The notes below the pieces were generated by a model, which did not search any database, was not told where the DNA came from, and worked only from the letters and a program-made list of their open reading frames with translations. Positions 6,883-51,247 of a stretch of 58,988 bases of DNA are shown piece after piece; the stretch's first letter is position 1; each line of letters opens with the position of its first letter. Location: positions 1 to 58,988 of the forward strand of contig LGEZ01000013.1 of the NCBI GenBank assembly GCA_001508005.1, given 5' to 3'. Made by a program: the position numbers and the translations under genes. The stretch comes from Clostridia bacterium 41_269 (lineage in GTDB: Bacteria; Bacillota; DTU086).

Positions 6883-8295
6883 TTAAAATATTTTTTCATG
6901 GTATTGCGGTATTTCGGTAAGATAATCACCATTAAAACATGCCACACAGATTTTTTCTTTAGGCAGTCCCACTGCTTTTATAAGGCCCTCTAAACTAAGG
7001 TAATGAAGGCTGTCTGCACCTATATGCATGCATATCTCATCTATGCTTTTTTGAGCGGCAATAAGTTCTTCGCGGGATGAAGTATCAATGCCGTAATAGC
7101 AGGGATATTTTATTGGTGGAGAGCTTGCCATCATATGAACTTCTTTGGCCCCTGCTTCTCTTACAAGCTGAACAATTTTTCTGCTTGTGGTTCCCCTAAC
7201 TATGGAATCATCTATCATTATAACCCGTTTCCCATTCAGTATCTCCCTTACAGGATTCAGTTTAAGCCGAACCCCAAGATCTCTCATTTTTTGGGTAGGC
7301 TGAATAAATGTTCTTCCCACATATCGATTTTTAATAAGACCGGGCATGTACGGTAAATTTGCTTCCTGTGCATAACCTATAGCTGCTGAAGTTCCCGAAT
7401 CCGGAACGGAAATAACCATATCAGCATCTATTTTTGCTTCCTTTGCAAGCTGCCTGCCCAATTCCAACCGCACTAAATTTACATTTTTCCCATCAATATT
7501 ACTATCAGGTCTTGCAAGATAAACATATTCAAAAACACACAGCCCCTGCCTTTCTCTATTTTCAATAAAAATGGAATCAATCCCATTTTCATCAATTACC
7601 ACAATTTCTCCAGGTTTAATATCCCGAACAAATTTAGCCCCTACGGTATTAAGGGCACAGGTTTCCGAAGCAACCACTGGGGATCCATCCAGATCTCCTA
7701 AACAAAGAGGTCTAAAACCATATGAGTCCCTAACAGCTATCAGCTTATCCTGAGTCATAATAATTAAAGAATAAGCTCCTTCCAGTGTGGAAACCACTTT
7801 TTTTACAGCAGAAAGCACATCTTTTTCCTCACAGCGTGCAATTAGATTCGCAATTATTTCCGTATCACTGGTAGACTGAAAAATTGCTCCTTTTTCTCCC
7901 AGCTTATTTTCTAATTCATTGGAATTAACAAGATTACCATTATGAGCAAAAGCAGCCATTCCCCAATAATATCTAAATACCATAGGCTGCGCATTAATAA
8001 TAGAACTGGACCCTGTTGTTGAATAGCGAACATGCCCCACAGCTATTTTCCCTTTTAATTCCTTCAGAATGCTTTCATTAAAAACTTCTGTAACAAGCCC
8101 CATGCCTTTATAAACTTTAATATCCTTTCCATTGCTTACTCCTATTCCTGCACTTTCCTGGCCTCGATGCTGCAGTGCATGAAGCCCGTAATAAGTTATG
8201 CGGGATACCCTTCTACCGGGCCCATAAATTCCAAAAATACCGCACTCATCTCTAACCTTATCTTCCTCAAAATCAAAAATTAAAGCATCAGACAT
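6883..8295 (-). CDS. purF: Amidophosphoribosyltransferase (Fe-S type)
   Basis: 470 aa. It is the committed step of purine synthesis (PRPP plus glutamine to phosphoribosylamine). The class II glutaminase nucleophile is Cys18 ([10 protein letters not shown]), so the first 17 residues are a propeptide expected to be cleaved. The PRTase motif is [14 protein letters not shown]. Cys residues in [16 protein letters not shown] and CVACF match the four ligands of the B. subtilis-type 4Fe-4S cluster, an oxygen-sensitive form. The ATG at 8295 follows GGGGGGCGATTGA. The gene overlaps purL by 16 bases. Confidence 0.97.
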
Positions 8296-10487
8296 TCAAT
8301 CGCCCCCCGCCAGGCTTTTTCCATCTTAGCAATGCTGAGATTAATAATCTCATCAGAAAATTCACTAACTTTTATTTTAAGCTCCCTTCCTCCGACCTCA
8401 CCAATTAAACTTGTGGGTACACCAAATTTTTCTGCAAGGCTTAACATATCCTCTTTTTTATTCTTGTCAACAGTTACAATTATTCTAGATTGAGTCTCCC
8501 CAAAAAGAAGTTCAGGAAGCTCAAGATTTTCTTTAACTAAATTAATGTCTGCCCCAATATTTCCACTTATGCAGGATTCTGCTAAGGCAACAGCCAGTCC
8601 CCCTTCTGAACAATCATGGGCACTTTTAATTAAATTAGTTCTAATGGCTTCAAGGCACAGATCTTGTACTGCCTTTTCTTTTTTAAGATCTAAAACTGGC
8701 ACCCTTCCCGTTTCCAGCCCATGGACTACCTCCAAATACATACTTGCACCAAGTTCGGGCTCCGTCTTTCCAAGAAGAAAAATAAGATCGCCTTCTTCTT
8801 TAAATCCCTGGCTTCTAATATGGCTGATGTCCTCAATCAATCCTACCATTCCCACAATGGGAGTAGGATAAATGGCACCCCTTTCACTTTCATTATAGAA
8901 ACTCACATTACCGCTTATAACAGGCGTTCCAAGAGCTTCTGCAGCCTCGCTCATACCTTTAATTACCTGTTCAAACTGCCAATAAATTTCTGGTTTTTCT
9001 GGATTTCCAAAATTCAAACAGTCCGTTAAAGCTATGGGACGGGCGCCTGCACAGACAACATTGCGCGCTGCCTCAGCTACGGCAATGGAACCGCCCATAC
9101 GGGGATCCAAATAGCAGTACTTACCGTTGCCGTCCATAGATGCTGCTATAGCCTTATTTGTTCCTTTAATGCGTAAAACAGCTGCATCAGAACCAGGTCT
9201 GACTGCAGTATTAATTCTCACCATATGATCATACTGCCTGTATACCCATTCTTTACTGGCAATGGAAGGAGATGAAAGGAGATCAATAAGCACTTTATTC
9301 ATATCCTCAGGAATCGGAAGTTTACGCCAATCAAAACTTTCAGCTTCTTTAAGGTAGGAGGGCTCTTTTTTCTCAGGACTGTAAACGGGGCACATTTCAG
9401 TAAGAGCTCGGGCTGGTATTTCTGCTTCTACTTTGCTTCCATTTTTCACCCTGAGAATACCATCACTGGTAACGTATCCTATGACTACTGCTTCAAGATC
9501 CCACTTTTTGAATACTTTTTCTACTTCTTTTTCCTTACCCTTTTGTGGAATAACAAGCATTCTTTCCTGGCTTTCAGAAAGCATAATTTCATAAGGTGTC
9601 ATGCCTTTTTCTCTAAGGGGCACTCTGTTCACATCAATTTCCATACCCAATCCTGCCCTTGAAGCAGTTTCACTTGTAGCCCCTGTAATACCTGCAGCTC
9701 CCAAATCCTGCATCCCCACTATATATCCTGCCCTAGTTACTTCAAGGCAGGCTTCCAAAAGCAGCTTTTCCATAAAGGGATCTCCCACCTGAACCGAAGG
9801 TCTTTTGCTTTCGGATTCAGAGCTGAGCTCTTCTGAAGCAAATGTAGCTCCATGGATACCATCTCTACCCGTTCTTGCTCCTACCAGCATTACAGGATTT
9901 CCTACTCCTTCTGCTTTTCCCCTTGTGAGATCATCACGGTTTAGAATTCCTATGCACATAGCATTTACTAAAGGATTGCCTTCATAGCTCTTATTGAAAT
10001 AGACCTCTCCCCCAACAGTGGGTATCCCCATGCAGTTTCCATACCAAGCAATTCCACTAACAACACCGTTAAAAAGATACCTAACCCTTGGGCTATCAAG
10101 TCTGCCGAATCTCAATGAATTTAGCAAAGCAATGGGTCTTGCACCCATACAAAGTATATCTCTAATTATTCCCCCAACTCCCGTAGCAGCTCCCTGAAAA
10201 GGTTCTATAGCAGAAGGATGATTATGGCTCTCAACTTTAAAAACCACAGCCTTACCATTACCTATATCAACTGCTCCTGCGTTTTCTCCAGGTCCGCATA
10301 TTACCCGCTCCCCTTTGGTTGGAAACATCTTTAAAGCCTTTTTAGAATTTTTATAACTGCAGTGCTCTGACCACATAACAGCAAACATTCCCAATTCCAA
10401 ATAATTGGGTTCCCGCCCCAGTATTTTTTTTATCAGCTCATATTCGTTTTTCCTAAGCCCCATTTCTTTCCAGGTTTCACTTTTCAC
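8280..10487 (-). CDS. purL: FGAM synthase, large subunit
   Basis: 735 aa, the small Gram-positive type PurL that works with separate PurS and PurQ. Seen are [12 protein letters not shown] near the N-terminus, the ATP-site [14 protein letters not shown] and the second-half [16 protein letters not shown]. It converts FGAR to FGAM using ammonia from PurQ. I place the start at the GTG 10487, because GGAGAGG lies 7 bases before it; an in-frame GTG at 10496 is too close to that site. The start region overlaps the purQ stop. Confidence 0.96.
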
Positions 10488-26727: not shown

Positions 26728-26870
26728 ACAGGGAAGTTTTTCTCCCCTTGCCTTCCGACAGCCTACTAAGTTAGCTGCGGTTCGGGCCGGCAAGGAAAGC
26801 CCTTACGCCTTTTTGGCAAGATTCACCCCATTTTTGGACCCCCACTTTCTTAAAGAAATTGGACCAAAAA
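26728..26870 (-). ncRNA. c-di-AMP riboswitch (ydaO/yuaA type)
   Basis: The minus-strand leader of kimA contains the conserved blocks of the ydaO motif in order: GGGGTGAAT, a variable arm, AAGGGCTTTCCT, then GCCCGAACC-GCAGCTAAC-TTAGTAGGC. It is followed by GGGGAG-AAAAA-CTTCCC and a run of seven T's about 60 bases before the kimA ATG, consistent with ligand-induced termination. High c-di-AMP (signalling ample K+) would shut off kimA. Confidence 0.9.
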
Positions 26871-26893
26871 ATTGTTAAATGTTTGTAAAACTT

Positions 26894-46628: not shown

Positions 46629-47408
46629 TTAAGATAATTTTTTCTCTAGAGCGAGTTTTACAATTCTGCTCATTATCTCCCCTGCCTTGCCCCTCAGCAC
46701 CACATCGGCTTCAGCATCCAAATAAGTAGGTGTCATGTTTATAACAATTATGGGTGTACCTGCTTCTAAAGCATATTTTGGAATGTTTGCAGCTGGATAA
46801 ACCCTTAAGCTCGAACCTACAACAATAAACAGATCGCAGTTTCTCGCTCTATAACAGGCCTCTTCCAAAACATTTATAGGAAGCACTTCCCCAAAAAAAA
46901 CTACGCCCGGTTTTAAAATTCCCCCACAGTGATCGCACTTGGGTATTTCTTCCTTAAAAAGTTTGTTTTTAATACGCTCCGTTTCATAGAGCTGATCACA
47001 GTTCATGCACTTCACCCTGCGCATATTCCCATGCAGTTCAAATATGAAATCATCAGGAATACCCGATTCTTGATGAAGACCGTCTATATTCTGGGTTATA
47101 ACCCCATAAAGGCAGCCATGGGCAAATAAATCTGCAATGGCTTTATGGGCAGCATTGGGTTCAGCATGAAACTGTAAAAAAGTTTCCCTTAACATTGCCC
47201 ACACCTTTTTTCTGGCTTGAGATGAGCTCATAAAATACTGATAGGTAAATAATTCTGGATCATATCTGCTCCAAATCCCCCCAGGACTCCGAAAATCAGG
47301 AATTCCGGATTCTGTACTCACTCCTGCTCCTGTAAAAACAACAATTTTTTGAGCCTTTGCAGTTAACTCAGCTGCTTTATTAAGATCCTTGTGCTCCATT
47401 TCATCCAA
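46629..47408 (-). CDS. cobB: NAD-dependent protein deacylase (sirtuin)
   Basis: 259 aa Sir2. GAGVSTESGIPDFRSPGG (about 28-45), TQNIDGLHQESG with the catalytic His in ELHGN, two zinc Cys pairs (CMNC and CDHC) and GSSLRVYPAAN are all present. It removes acyl groups from Lys and makes O-acetyl-ADP-ribose. The start is a TTG at 47408 (GGGGTG upstream) or the ATG at 47399. It is the first gene of the sirtuin-YjbQ-macro-Lon series. Confidence 0.95.
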   Translation of the reverse strand: MDEMEHKDLNKAAELTAKAQKIVVFTGAGVSTESGIPDFRSPGGIWSRYDPELFTYQYFMSSSQARKKVWAMLRETFLQFHAEPNAAHKAIADLFAHGCLYGVITQNIDGLHQESGIPDDFIFELHGNMRRVKCMNCDQLYETERIKNKLFKEEIPKCDHCGGILKPGVVFFGEVLPINVLEEACYRARNCDLFIVVGSSLRVYPAANIPKYALEAGTPIIVINMTPTYLDAEADVVLRGKAGEIMSRIVKLALEKKLS

Positions 47409-47540: not shown

Positions 47541-47570
47541 TTGTTTTATTAGGTTTTTTTAAGCTATAAT
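47541..47570 (+). promoter_or_regulatory. Promoter of the glutamate synthase operon
   Basis: TTGTTT, 18-base spacer, TATAAT, about 30 bases before the ANTAR-type hairpins. Predicted start near 47577 gives a leader of about 260 nt. The part of the leader between the terminator and the gene (47690-47825) shows nothing I recognise. Confidence 0.6.
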
Positions 47571-47600
47571 CAATTTAACTTCATATTCTGGTTTATTAAC

Positions 47601-47685
47601 GCGGGCAGCGGCGTCCGCATCCATCGCAGACAACGGCGTCTTTAATTCACGGAGTTTTTCCGTGAAAAAGGCGCCTTTTGTTTTT
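47601..47685 (+). promoter_or_regulatory. ANTAR-type double hexaloop hairpin with overlapping terminator
   Basis: Hairpin 1: GCGGGC-AGCGGC-GTCCGC (47601-47618), a 6-bp stem with hexaloop AGCGGC. Hairpin 2: AGAC-AACGGC-GTCT (47628-47641), hexaloop AACGGC. Both loops have A at position 1 and G at position 4, the ANTAR-target rule. A terminator (GGCGTCTTT... with ...AAAGGCGCC, 47635-47675, plus inner TTCACGGA/TCCGTGAA) followed by TTTTGTTTTT uses the same bases as hairpin 2. An ANTAR regulator binding hairpins 1 and 2 would therefore prevent termination. The regulator is not in the window. Confidence 0.82.
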
Positions 47686-47837
47686 ATTCATAGCCACCTA
47701 AGGAAGTAAGCCCAGGAACAGCTGAAGCTTAGAAAAACAAAAACTTAAATGGGCTGAATCACAAAATGCAGCTTCATAATTGGTGAGTAGAACGGTTATT
47801 TCACAACAATCAAATTCATTCTGGGAGGATGAAAGAT

Positions 47838-48920
47838 ATGGATAGCAAAAACTTTAGAATTCCCTCTGGATGTTCAATATGCGGAATTATGAATAAAAAG
47901 GGCCGAGTATTTTCGGGAAATGATATTATCCAGTCCATTGCACTGATGCATGAACGCTCAAACGGACTGGGGGGAGGCTTTGCAGCATATGGGATTTATC
48001 CTGAATACAAAAATTATTATGCTTTTCATCTTTTTTACAGCGATAAAAATGCAAAAGAAGAAACAGAACATTTTCTGCACCAGCATTTCGATGTTATTCT
48101 TGGAGAAAAAATACCCACCAGAAAGATAAAAAGCATAAAAAACCCTCCCCTTATTTGGAGATATTTTTTAAAACCCGACAGCAAAAGAATTTTGCTATCC
48201 GACATTGAAGAAGAAAACGATTATGTCTTTTCATGCGTTATGAAAATAAATACCTACATTAAAGGAGCATATGTTTTTTCAAGCGGTAAAAATATGGGAG
48301 CTTTTAAAGGAGTTGGCTACCCTGAAGATATTGGAGATTTTTACCGCCTTGATGAATACAAAGGATATATTTGGACTGCCCATGGAAGATTTCCTACCAA
48401 TACCCCTGGCTGGTGGGGAGGTGCTCATCCTTTTACTCTTCTGGATTGGTCGGTAGTTCATAACGGAGAAATTTCATCTTATGATACCAACAGAAGATTT
48501 TTAGAAATGTATGGTTATAAATGCGCTCTACAAACAGATACCGAAGTGATAACCTATACCTTTGATTACTTGGTACGAAAGCAGGGTTTGTCATTGGAGA
48601 CTGCTGTAAAAATAGTTGCCCCTCCCTTTTGGTCTGAAATAGAACGGCTGCCTAAAAAAGAGGCAGATTTTTTAAGAACATTGAGATATGTCTACTCAAG
48701 TCTTCTAATAAATGGACCCTTTTCAATTATTTTAGGTATGAGCAATGGAATGCTGGCATTAAACGATAGAATAAAGCTCAGACCCCTCACAGCAGCTGTT
48801 CATGGTGAATTCCTTTATGTTGCAAGTGAGGAATCTGCAATAAGAGAAATCTGTCCCCAACCACACCGCGTTTGGGCACCAAAGGGCGGTGAGCCGGTGA
48901 TAGGATTTTTAGAAAAATAA
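47838..48920 (+). CDS. Glutamate synthase, class II glutaminase-domain subunit
   Basis: 360 aa from the ATG at 47838 (GGGAGGATGAAAGAT upstream). It has a Cys near the N-terminus in GCSICGIMNKKG and the class II glutaminase residues GRFPTNTPGWWGGAHPF, VHNGEISS and LQTDTEVITY. It releases ammonia from glutamine for the neighbouring synthase subunit. In bacteria such as E. coli this domain is the N-terminus of GltB; here the three GltB domains are separate genes, as in archaea and some Clostridia. Confidence 0.9.
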   Translation: MDSKNFRIPSGCSICGIMNKKGRVFSGNDIIQSIALMHERSNGLGGGFAAYGIYPEYKNYYAFHLFYSDKNAKEETEHFLHQHFDVILGEKIPTRKIKSIKNPPLIWRYFLKPDSKRILLSDIEEENDYVFSCVMKINTYIKGAYVFSSGKNMGAFKGVGYPEDIGDFYRLDEYKGYIWTAHGRFPTNTPGWWGGAHPFTLLDWSVVHNGEISSYDTNRRFLEMYGYKCALQTDTEVITYTFDYLVRKQGLSLETAVKIVAPPFWSEIERLPKKEADFLRTLRYVYSSLLINGPFSIILGMSNGMLALNDRIKLRPLTAAVHGEFLYVASEESAIREICPQPHRVWAPKGGEPVIGFLEK

Positions 48921-48965
48921 TACATAAAAAAGGCTTCTAATCACTTATTCGAAGAGGTGTTGTCT

Positions 48966-50468
48966 ATGGCTTTGAGCTTTAAAATGCCAGAATTTTTAAT
49001 TAAAAGACAGGTTGAAACCTGCAGTAAATGCTTGTTATGTGTTAAACAGTGCGCCAATAAGGTGCACTATTACGATGAAAAAAATGATAGTTTTTTAACT
49101 GCGGATGAAAACTGTGTAGGATGCCACCGCTGCGCAGTCATCTGTCCCACAAGATCAATTTATATTTTAAAATATCCCCTAGAATTTCGCAGAAACGCAT
49201 ACTGGACAGAAGAAACCATCAAGCAAATCTACAAGCAGGCAGAAAGTGGGGGGATACTTCTAGCTGGAACAGGTACCGATAGGGATTACCCCATTTATTG
49301 GGATAAAATACTAATTAATGCAAGCCAGGTTACCAACCCTTCTATAGATCCTTTGAGGGAACCTATGGAGCTCAAAACTTTCCTGGGCCGCAGACCTAAA
49401 GCTATAACAGTTGAAGGGAAAGAAATAAAAGAAGAAATTCCCCCTAAATTGGAGCTAGAAGTCCCCATTATGTTTGCTGCAATGTCCTTCGGAGCAATAA
49501 GCCTCAATGCAGTAAAATCACTGGCTAAAGCAGCACAAAAAAAAGGCACTTATTATAATACAGGAGAAGGGGGACTTCATCGAGATCTCTATCAGTACGG
49601 CAGCAATACTACTGTCCAGGTAGCTTCGGGAAGATTTGGAGTTCATCCTGACTATCTAAATGCAGGAGCAGCAATTGAAATCAAGATCGGACAGGGAGCA
49701 AAACCTGGTATAGGAGGTCATCTACCAGGAGAAAAAGTCGGTGAGGAAGTATCCAAAACCAGAATGATCCCCTTGGGCAGCGACGCCATTTCCCCTGCTC
49801 CCCATCATGATATATATTCCATAGAAGATCTGCGCCAGCTGATATTTTCTCTAAAGGAAGCCACTGATTATAAAAAACCGGTGGGAGTAAAAATTGCCGC
49901 AGTGCACAATATTGCCGCCATAGCATCGGGAATAGCAAGAGCAGGAGCTGATTTTATCGTTATAGATGGTTTCCGAGGTGGAACAGGAGCAGCCCCTCAG
50001 CGAACCAGAGACAATGTAGGGATTCCCATTGAACTTGCCCTCGCAGCCGTAGACAGCAGGCTTAGGGATGAAAGCATACGAAATGAAGTATCCCTTGTGG
50101 TATCTGGAGGAATACGAAATAGTGCAGATGTAATAAAAGCAATAGCGTTGGGAGCCGACGCAGTCTACATTGGTACCGCTGCACTTATAGCGCTGGGCTG
50201 CCATATGTGTCAAAAATGCTATACAGGTAAATGCAACTGGGGTATTGCCACTCAAGATCCCCAACTGACCAAACGCCTTGATCCTGAAATTGGTGCACAA
50301 AGGGCAGCAAATCTAATAAAAGCATGGAAACACGAAATAAAAGACATGCTCGGAGGTATGGGCATCAACGCCATAGAAAGCCTTCGGGGAAATAGGCTGA
50401 TGCTTAGGGGAATTGGGTTGACGGATACGGAACTGAAAATTCTTGGGATTAAAGCTGCAGGTGAATAA
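48966..50468 (+). CDS. Glutamate synthase, FMN/Fe-S synthase subunit with ferredoxin domain
   Basis: 500 aa from the ATG at 48966. The N-terminus (about 18-70) has two 4Fe-4S motifs (CSKCLLCVKQC and CVGCHRCAVIC). The FMN TIM barrel follows (EGGLHRD, KIGQGAKPGIGGHLPG, SPAPHHDIYSIEDL, DGFRGGTGAAP) and the 3Fe-4S cluster CHMCQKCYTGKC near 415-426. It makes two glutamates from 2-oxoglutarate and ammonia; the added ferredoxin domain suggests reduced ferredoxin rather than NADPH as electron donor, in keeping with an anaerobe. Confidence 0.93.
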   Translation: MALSFKMPEFLIKRQVETCSKCLLCVKQCANKVHYYDEKNDSFLTADENCVGCHRCAVICPTRSIYILKYPLEFRRNAYWTEETIKQIYKQAESGGILLAGTGTDRDYPIYWDKILINASQVTNPSIDPLREPMELKTFLGRRPKAITVEGKEIKEEIPPKLELEVPIMFAAMSFGAISLNAVKSLAKAAQKKGTYYNTGEGGLHRDLYQYGSNTTVQVASGRFGVHPDYLNAGAAIEIKIGQGAKPGIGGHLPGEKVGEEVSKTRMIPLGSDAISPAPHHDIYSIEDLRQLIFSLKEATDYKKPVGVKIAAVHNIAAIASGIARAGADFIVIDGFRGGTGAAPQRTRDNVGIPIELALAAVDSRLRDESIRNEVSLVVSGGIRNSADVIKAIALGADAVYIGTAALIALGCHMCQKCYTGKCNWGIATQDPQLTKRLDPEIGAQRAANLIKAWKHEIKDMLGGMGINAIESLRGNRLMLRGIGLTDTELKILGIKAAGE

Positions 50469-50503: not shown

Positions 50504-51247
50504 ATGGCAGTATCTATAAATTATAAGGGACTTAACTTTAGGCAGGCTGGAGAACTTCTAAAAAAAGCCGCTGCTGATGGAGAAAAACAAATAAATCTCT
50601 TCAATGTAAATGGACAAAGATATATAGCTGCTGGTTTAAAAGGAAACTTTTTTATAAACATTCACGGCACTCCAGGTAATGATCTGGCAGCTTATATGGA
50701 CGGACCAGAAATCTTTGTCATGGGGAATGCCCAAGATGGTTGCTGCAACACGATGAACAGCGGCAGGGTAATCATCAATGGTAGTGTAGGCGATATAGCT
50801 GGTTATGCTATGCGTGGTGGAGAACTTTTTATCAAAGGAAATGCAGGATACAGAACGGGAATACACATGAAAGAATATGGAGATACCGTACCGGTGCTCG
50901 TTATTGGAGGTAGAACGGGTGATTTTTTAGGCGAATATATGGCTGGGGGAATAATAATTGTGTTGGGATTGGGTATGGAACCTTGTGATGAAATTGTTGG
51001 AAACTTCTGCGGTACTGGGATGCATGGAGGAGTTATGTATATTAGGGGTAAAATAAACCCTCATAAATTAGGAAAAGAAGTAAAATCAGTAGAAATGGAA
51101 GAAAAAGATTATATCCTTTTGGAAAAATATTTAAAACAGTTCTGCGCTTATTTCAATGAAAGTCTCCATATAATTGAAGAAAGCAGCTTTCAAAAAATCG
51201 TACCCTTCAACAAACGCCCCTATGGAAATTTATATACTCCCCATTAA
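50504..51247 (+). CDS. Glutamate synthase, GXGXG structural subunit
   Basis: 247 aa beta-helix domain with repeated G-rich turns (GNAQDGCCNTMNSGRVIINGSVGD, GNAGYRTGIHMKEY, CGTGMHGGVMYIRG). In GltB this C-terminal domain holds the ammonia channel together. GGAGGGTGAGTC precedes the ATG. It completes the three-gene enzyme; no small NADPH subunit (GltD) is present. Confidence 0.9.
   Translation: MAVSINYKGLNFRQAGELLKKAAADGEKQINLFNVNGQRYIAAGLKGNFFINIHGTPGNDLAAYMDGPEIFVMGNAQDGCCNTMNSGRVIINGSVGDIAGYAMRGGELFIKGNAGYRTGIHMKEYGDTVPVLVIGGRTGDFLGEYMAGGIIIVLGLGMEPCDEIVGNFCGTGMHGGVMYIRGKINPHKLGKEVKSVEMEEKDYILLEKYLKQFCAYFNESLHIIEESSFQKIVPFNKRPYGNLYTPH

Follow-up and report, generated by a model that had tools for sequence, protein, structure and literature searches.

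The window, the whole stretch of 58,988 nucleotides from Clostridia bacterium 41_269 that was analysed here, contains three consecutive genes for a split glutamate synthase (gltABC), and a structured leader stands in front of them (Table 1). An earlier note on this DNA had read the downstream genes in this way, and the Pfam domains of the three products bear it out. The start of gltA lies more likely at 47838, 10 nt after GGGAGG. Because the next gene upstream is encoded on the minus strand, the plus-strand terminator must be an attenuator in the gltABC leader.

Table 1. Features of the gltABC leader, the operon and the divergent upstream gene (window coordinates).
Feature	Position	Strand	Remarks
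Divergent upstream gene, sirtuin-like NAD-dependent deacylase	46629-47408	-	ORF; family by sequence reading only
Weak -35 TTGTTT	47541-47546	+	18 nt 5' of TATAAT; read by eye
Putative -10 box TATAAT	47565-47570	+	read by eye from sequence; tentative
Hairpin P1	47601-47618	+	GCGGGC-AGCGGC-GTCCGC; 6 bp; hexaloop AGCGGC with A1, G4
P1-P2 linker	47619-47627	+	ATCCATCGC; 9 nt
Hairpin P2 (antiterminator)	47628-47641	+	AGAC-AACGGC-GTCT; 4 bp; hexaloop AACGGC with A1, G4
Intrinsic terminator	47635-47685	+	stem 47635-47675 with 2-nt bulge, then T-run; sequence and folding (z -6.7)
Terminator 5' arm	47635-47643, 47646-47653	+	GGCGTCTTT, bulge AA, TTCACGGA
Terminator loop, 3' arm and T-run	47659-47666, 47667-47675 (3' arm)	+	loop GTTTT, then TCCGTGAA, AAAGGCGCC, T-run TTTTGTTTTT
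gltA-like glutaminase subunit of split glutamate synthase	47829-48920	+	GATase_2/6/7 (Pfam); class II; ORF
gltB-like FMN synthase subunit, 4Fe-4S N-terminus	48957-50468	+	Glu_synthase E 2e-143
gltC-like GXGXG subunit	50504-51247	+	GXGXG E 5.5e-31

Direct reading of the bases confirmed that both hairpins carry the hexaloops described earlier, with A1 and G4 in place, and each loop is closed by a C-G pair. The re-use of hairpin 2 bases by the terminator, which had also been claimed, was found as well: the overlap starts at 47635, where GGC from the P2 loop forms the first three bases of the terminator 5' arm, and it takes up the entire 3' arm of P2. In folding calculations the minimum free energy structure of the full leader consisted of P1 and the terminator (-38.6 kcal/mol, z -5.2 against shuffles), and the terminator on its own reached -25.1 kcal/mol, a value equalled in 0 of 200 shuffles. 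When the terminator 3' arm was removed the leader folded into P1 and P2, so that P2 and the terminator are mutually exclusive. The combination of P1, P2 and an overlapping terminator occurs once in the 59-kb window; 40 dinucleotide shuffles produced no instance, and searches of the window with any of the 15 alternative letter pairs in place of A1 and G4 gave no such triple. A generic terminator scan misses this terminator because its stem carries the 2-nt bulge. Transcription is predicted from the putative -10 box to start at about 47577; a thresholded promoter scan reported no sigma-70-type promoter above threshold and did not pick up this TATAAT. The arrangement corresponds to the dual-hexaloop element defined by Ramesh et al. 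2012 (PMC3369931), with stems of at least 3 bp (6 and 4), a short linker (9 nt) and a terminator overlapping P2, and the two further marks of this class, an ANTAR protein in the same genome and retention of A1 and G4 in homologous leaders, are present too.

Searching the genome (1.67 Mb in 30 contigs, 95.5% complete) yielded two ANTAR response-regulator genes (E 5e-20 and 1.6e-18), one intact on contig 13 and one frameshifted on contig 30; the ANTAR-domain protein on which the earlier reading depended is thus encoded twice. The intact protein has 195 aa with a receiver and an ANTAR domain, and its closest solved structure is EutV (6wsh, E 3.5e-31). Walshe et al. (PMC8934654) listed which residues of EutV contact the RNA, either at its backbone or at the flipped G4, and 9 of these 11 contact residues are identical in the intact protein (R142, K143, K147, K149, E160, Y164, R168, M172 and N173), R175 and R177 being replaced by H and S. 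As in EutV-type regulators, the receiver Asp occurs together with the G4-contacting residues R142, K149, E160 and Y164. The receiver retains the phospho-acceptor D55 as well as S82 and K104, so that the protein is probably a phosphorylation target; neither the kinase nor an EutW-like partner was seen beside the gene. Directly upstream lies hcp (hydroxylamine reductase/prismane; L004:5769-7391), for which no hexaloop leader of its own was found, and about 1.8 kb downstream lies an FMN-binding GltB-like gene. On contig 30 both the ANTAR gene and a divergent asnB carry frameshifts (L003:7270-7632 and 7998-9317), and this branch may be decaying, perhaps recently, or misassembled. A clean dual-hexaloop leader nevertheless stands before each of these two genes.

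Pattern searches and local scans of the genome revealed at least four elements beyond the glt leader, and there may be more. A loose double-loop pattern was uninformative, with about 580 matches per strand and equally many in the control. Dual A1/G4 elements with overlapping terminators were found on the minus strand of contig 6 before amtB-glnK (ggtgcAGTGCTgcacc, aaaagcAAAGGCgttttt), on contig 30 before the asnB fragment (ggggcAGTGGCgtcct, gggcAGCGGGgccc) and on the minus strand of contig 30 before the frameshifted ANTAR gene (cacaccAACGATggtgtg, gggacAAAGGCgtccc), the names amtB, glnK and asnB having been assigned by reading translations. On contig 13 a single hexaloop (gggcAACGGTgccc) with an overlapping terminator precedes the GltB-like gene downstream of the intact ANTAR gene. 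Further copies had been anticipated, for example before amtB, and the contig 6 element is one of this kind. That the elements on gltABC, amtB-glnK, the asnB fragment, the ANTAR gene and the GltB-like gene make up a nitrogen regulon is well supported.

For relatives we collected 102 loci of the glutaminase gene (gltA) and scanned 500 nt upstream of each. An A1/G4 hexaloop overlapped by a terminator was found in 31 of these 102 leaders, compared with 0-4 for each of the other 15 letter pairs, so that the loop letters are retained in homologous leaders as the earlier note had required; in the other direction, 70 of the 102 leaders had no recognisable element. Nearly all collected elements (92 of 93) are closed by C-G. 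As pairing was a search criterion, counts of stem covariation are partly circular, and we therefore rely on the letter-pair and reversed-pattern controls. The glt leader cannot be traced in close kin, as no gltA match was obtained in the three nearest genomes, which belong to the same genus or family. One relative (G050) has a conserved dual element with ANTAR genes on both sides of its glt genes, and another (G035) has an ANTAR gene immediately upstream of gltA. The presence of an ANTAR gene does not by itself separate glt leaders, being seen with 28 of 28 that have an element vs 17 of 20 that do not; a separation came only from the unbiased pattern test across whole genomes described below.

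We conclude that the element is very probably an ANTAR-dependent antitermination leader of the gltABC operon, as proposed earlier; the ANTAR genes in the genome and the A1/G4 loops of homologous leaders support that proposal. With the regulator inactive, P1 would form first in the nascent RNA, followed by the terminator, so that RNA polymerase would halt at about 47680. An active ANTAR response regulator would bind the A1/G4 hexaloops and keep P2 closed, which would withhold the terminator 5' arm and let transcription proceed into gltA. The same regulator would probably act on at least four more leaders, those of amtB-glnK, the asnB fragment, the frameshifted ANTAR gene and the GltB-like gene, and this nitrogen-assimilation regulon would presumably be turned on at nitrogen shortage. 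The RNA anatomy, the exclusivity by folding, the conservation of the loop letters, the ANTAR genes with EutV contact residues and the content of the regulon are seen in the sequences; from these we infer regulator binding, antitermination and signal. Against it stand the P2 stem of only 4 bp, the frameshifted branch on contig 30 and the gltA leaders that have no element.

As a constitutive attenuator the terminator, which is strong alone, might merely reduce gltABC expression, with hexaloops that are there by coincidence. This appears very improbable in view of the shuffles (0 of 40) and the letter-pair controls (0 of 15), the four comparable elements that this genome has on nitrogen genes and the conservation of loop letters across the 102 leaders. 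A different leader-RNA mechanism, such as a glutamine or other riboswitch, a T-box or a leader peptide, could be suspected from an otherwise unexplained untranslated stretch of 145 nt between the terminator and gltA. We give this hardly any credence, as the region 47560-47840 matched no Rfam family at E up to 1 and only unrelated ones on the minus strand at E up to 10, no covariance model of a known leader RNA (glutamine riboswitch, T-box or others) matched the glt leader, and in folding the 145-nt stretch was no more stable than its shuffles.

If ANTAR antitermination is accepted, nitrogen limitation as its signal is moderately probable. This estimate is based on the regulon content and on NitR of Clostridium saccharobutylicum, an ANTAR antiterminator through which nitrogen limitation induces GS/GOGAT genes (Stutz 2007, cited in PMC6316151), and it is not higher because hcp stands directly before the intact regulator gene and no kinase was seen. 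The regulator might instead answer to nitrosative or N-oxide stress, or to an unlinked histidine kinase with another input, as the neighbouring hcp and the retained receiver residues would allow. However, the targets are ammonium uptake, PII and the synthesis of asparagine and glutamate, which a nitrogen supply signal fits better, and the NitR precedent (PMC6316151) points the same way; we therefore consider such another signal unlikely.

Antitermination of gltABC by an ANTAR regulator makes the glt leader an instance of an already known kind, and the novelty implied by the earlier note was too strong: such elements had been reported for the glutamate synthase genes of Desulfotomaculum reducens by Ramesh 2012 (PMC3369931), where nitrogen regulons are also given for other anaerobes, including D. 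acetoxidans, and control of GS/GOGAT by NitR is recorded in PMC6316151. Like the eut leaders of Enterococcus faecalis (PMC3369931, PMC8934654), the glt leader has two A1/G4 hexaloops, a short linker (9 nt, within the 5-12 nt range of the eut leaders; PMC3369931) and a terminator overlapping P2, and its receiver-ANTAR regulator shares most RNA-contact residues with EutV. Unlike the eut system, it controls glutamate synthase and ammonium uptake and not ethanolamine use, and no EutW-like partner is seen beside the regulator gene. The likeness to the predictions for D. reducens and D. acetoxidans (PMC3369931) extends to the kind of element, the kind of gene and the Gram-positive anaerobic hosts, whereas here an ANTAR gene is itself part of the regulon, and one member has a single hexaloop. 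With NitR it has in common the predicted ANTAR antitermination on GS/GOGAT-type genes (PMC6316151). Our analysis adds an ANTAR nitrogen regulon in a little-sampled lineage of Bacillota and supports RNA-level control of ammonium assimilation there. The comparison with single-hexaloop leaders, however, matters more than the glt leader itself.

Most of the positive leaders outside the lineage of the window have one hexaloop only, with the consensus GAAC-AAAGGC-GTTC. A strict filter asked for a closing pair of C-G or G-C, a terminator overlapping the hairpin and a -10 box located 3-14 nt before it; the count for A/G was then 22, vs 0-1 for any of the remaining 15 letter pairs. Among 92 distinct elements from gltA leaders and pattern searches, 57 had a -10-like box just upstream and P1 was present in 0 of these 57; in the elements lacking a close box it was present in 7 of 35. 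A -10-like box was about 2-6 times commoner at the element position than at shifted positions, and 18 of the 24 elements with an exact TATAAT also had TTGACA (at most 1 mismatch) at 16-18 nt. Since the -10 box is close upstream and P1 is absent, the transcript should start at or beside the hairpin, leaving no room for P1. Downstream of the single hexaloop, a second one was not enriched. Among the genes behind the elements are gltA, gltB, glnA (with an ANTAR gene behind it), gdhA, type III glutamine synthetase, argG, purF, PII, amtB, nifH, asnB and amino-acid ABC transporters, names that were mostly read from translation starts without a family search.

Co-occurrence was studied in 298 genomes from the phylum of one single-hexaloop genome, with a pattern search ignoring gene context. 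Terminator-bearing elements (50) occurred in 36 of the 298 genomes, and 34 of these 36 had an ANTAR gene, compared with a base rate of 148 of 298 (Fisher p 1.2e-9, a value inflated by shared ancestry). Matches without a terminator, which served as an internal control in the same genomes, showed no association (ANTAR gene in 20 of 33 genomes, p 0.20). The single-hexaloop leaders of other Clostridia share with the glt leader the C-G closed A1/G4 hexaloop, the terminator overlap, the nitrogen genes and an ANTAR gene in the genome; they differ in the absence of P1, in a hairpin 3-15 nt after the -10 box and, often, in an ANTAR protein of an Asp-less, His164/Glu168 type. On these sequence grounds it seems likely that a second, widespread ANTAR antitermination architecture exists on nitrogen genes of Clostridia, in which a single C-G closed A1/G4 hexaloop at the transcript 5' end is overlapped by a terminator without any P1; one member would be found in the present genome, and an Asp-less, glnA-linked ANTAR protein would often be the partner.

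According to Walshe et al. 2022 (PMC8934654) one hexaloop is the minimal binding site; the authors expected natural single sites in settings free of the time limit that a transcribing polymerase imposes, and called for bioinformatic work. If our reading is true, it answers their question whether single hexaloops serve as natural antitermination sites, and the idea that beating RNA polymerase takes two hexaloops would be contradicted by natural leaders that have a terminator and one hexaloop. Such leaders would also offer a short, testable RNA for ANTAR biochemistry. No report of the single-hexaloop class was found in the literature searched, which covered few subscription journals. What is new here, provisionally, is the use by many Clostridia of a single 5'-end hexaloop with terminator overlap in front of nitrogen genes.

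In single-hexaloop genomes the ANTAR gene usually lies behind glnA, unlike the intact ANTAR gene here, which lies behind hcp. In most of these glnA-linked proteins (L130-L144, L251-L266) the receiver Asp is replaced, mostly by Asn and otherwise by Val, Ala or Leu. At the positions of EutV R142, Y164 and R168 the subfamily has Ile/Leu, His and Glu, and K149, E160 and M172 are almost always retained. P1 was absent in 18 elements from genomes known to have the Asp-less, His164/Glu168 type. A strict pairing of this type with single hexaloops was considered and rejected, as an Asp-bearing, Tyr-type ANTAR protein accompanies the single hexaloops of Thermoanaerobacterium and others. It was already known that Asp-less receivers are enriched among ANTAR proteins in general (PMC4395418); a glnA-linked ANTAR protein without a phospho-acceptor poses the concrete question of its switch. 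One might speculate that glutamine synthetase (GlnA) is the sensor partner of the subfamily. In one genome two copies of the conserved element ctccaaaacAAAGGCgttttgggg lie about 2.8 kb from each other (L227:591 and, on the minus strand, L227:3396), before a gene for a membrane protein starting MQVVLTILGA and before a carboxylase-like gene, and the ANTAR protein of this genome has Met at the position of Tyr164.

Two minor observations concern the window itself. Between 47709 and 47775, within the 145-nt stretch before gltA, which has no Rfam match and in nested folding shows no excess stability, the perfect stems AGCCCA/UGGGCU and UGAAGCU/AGCUUCA could cross to form an H-type pseudoknot with an A-rich loop, which may be due to chance. 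The sole Rfam match in the window is a c-di-AMP riboswitch (ydaO/yuaA type) at 26745-26875 on the minus strand, which reaches the gathering score.
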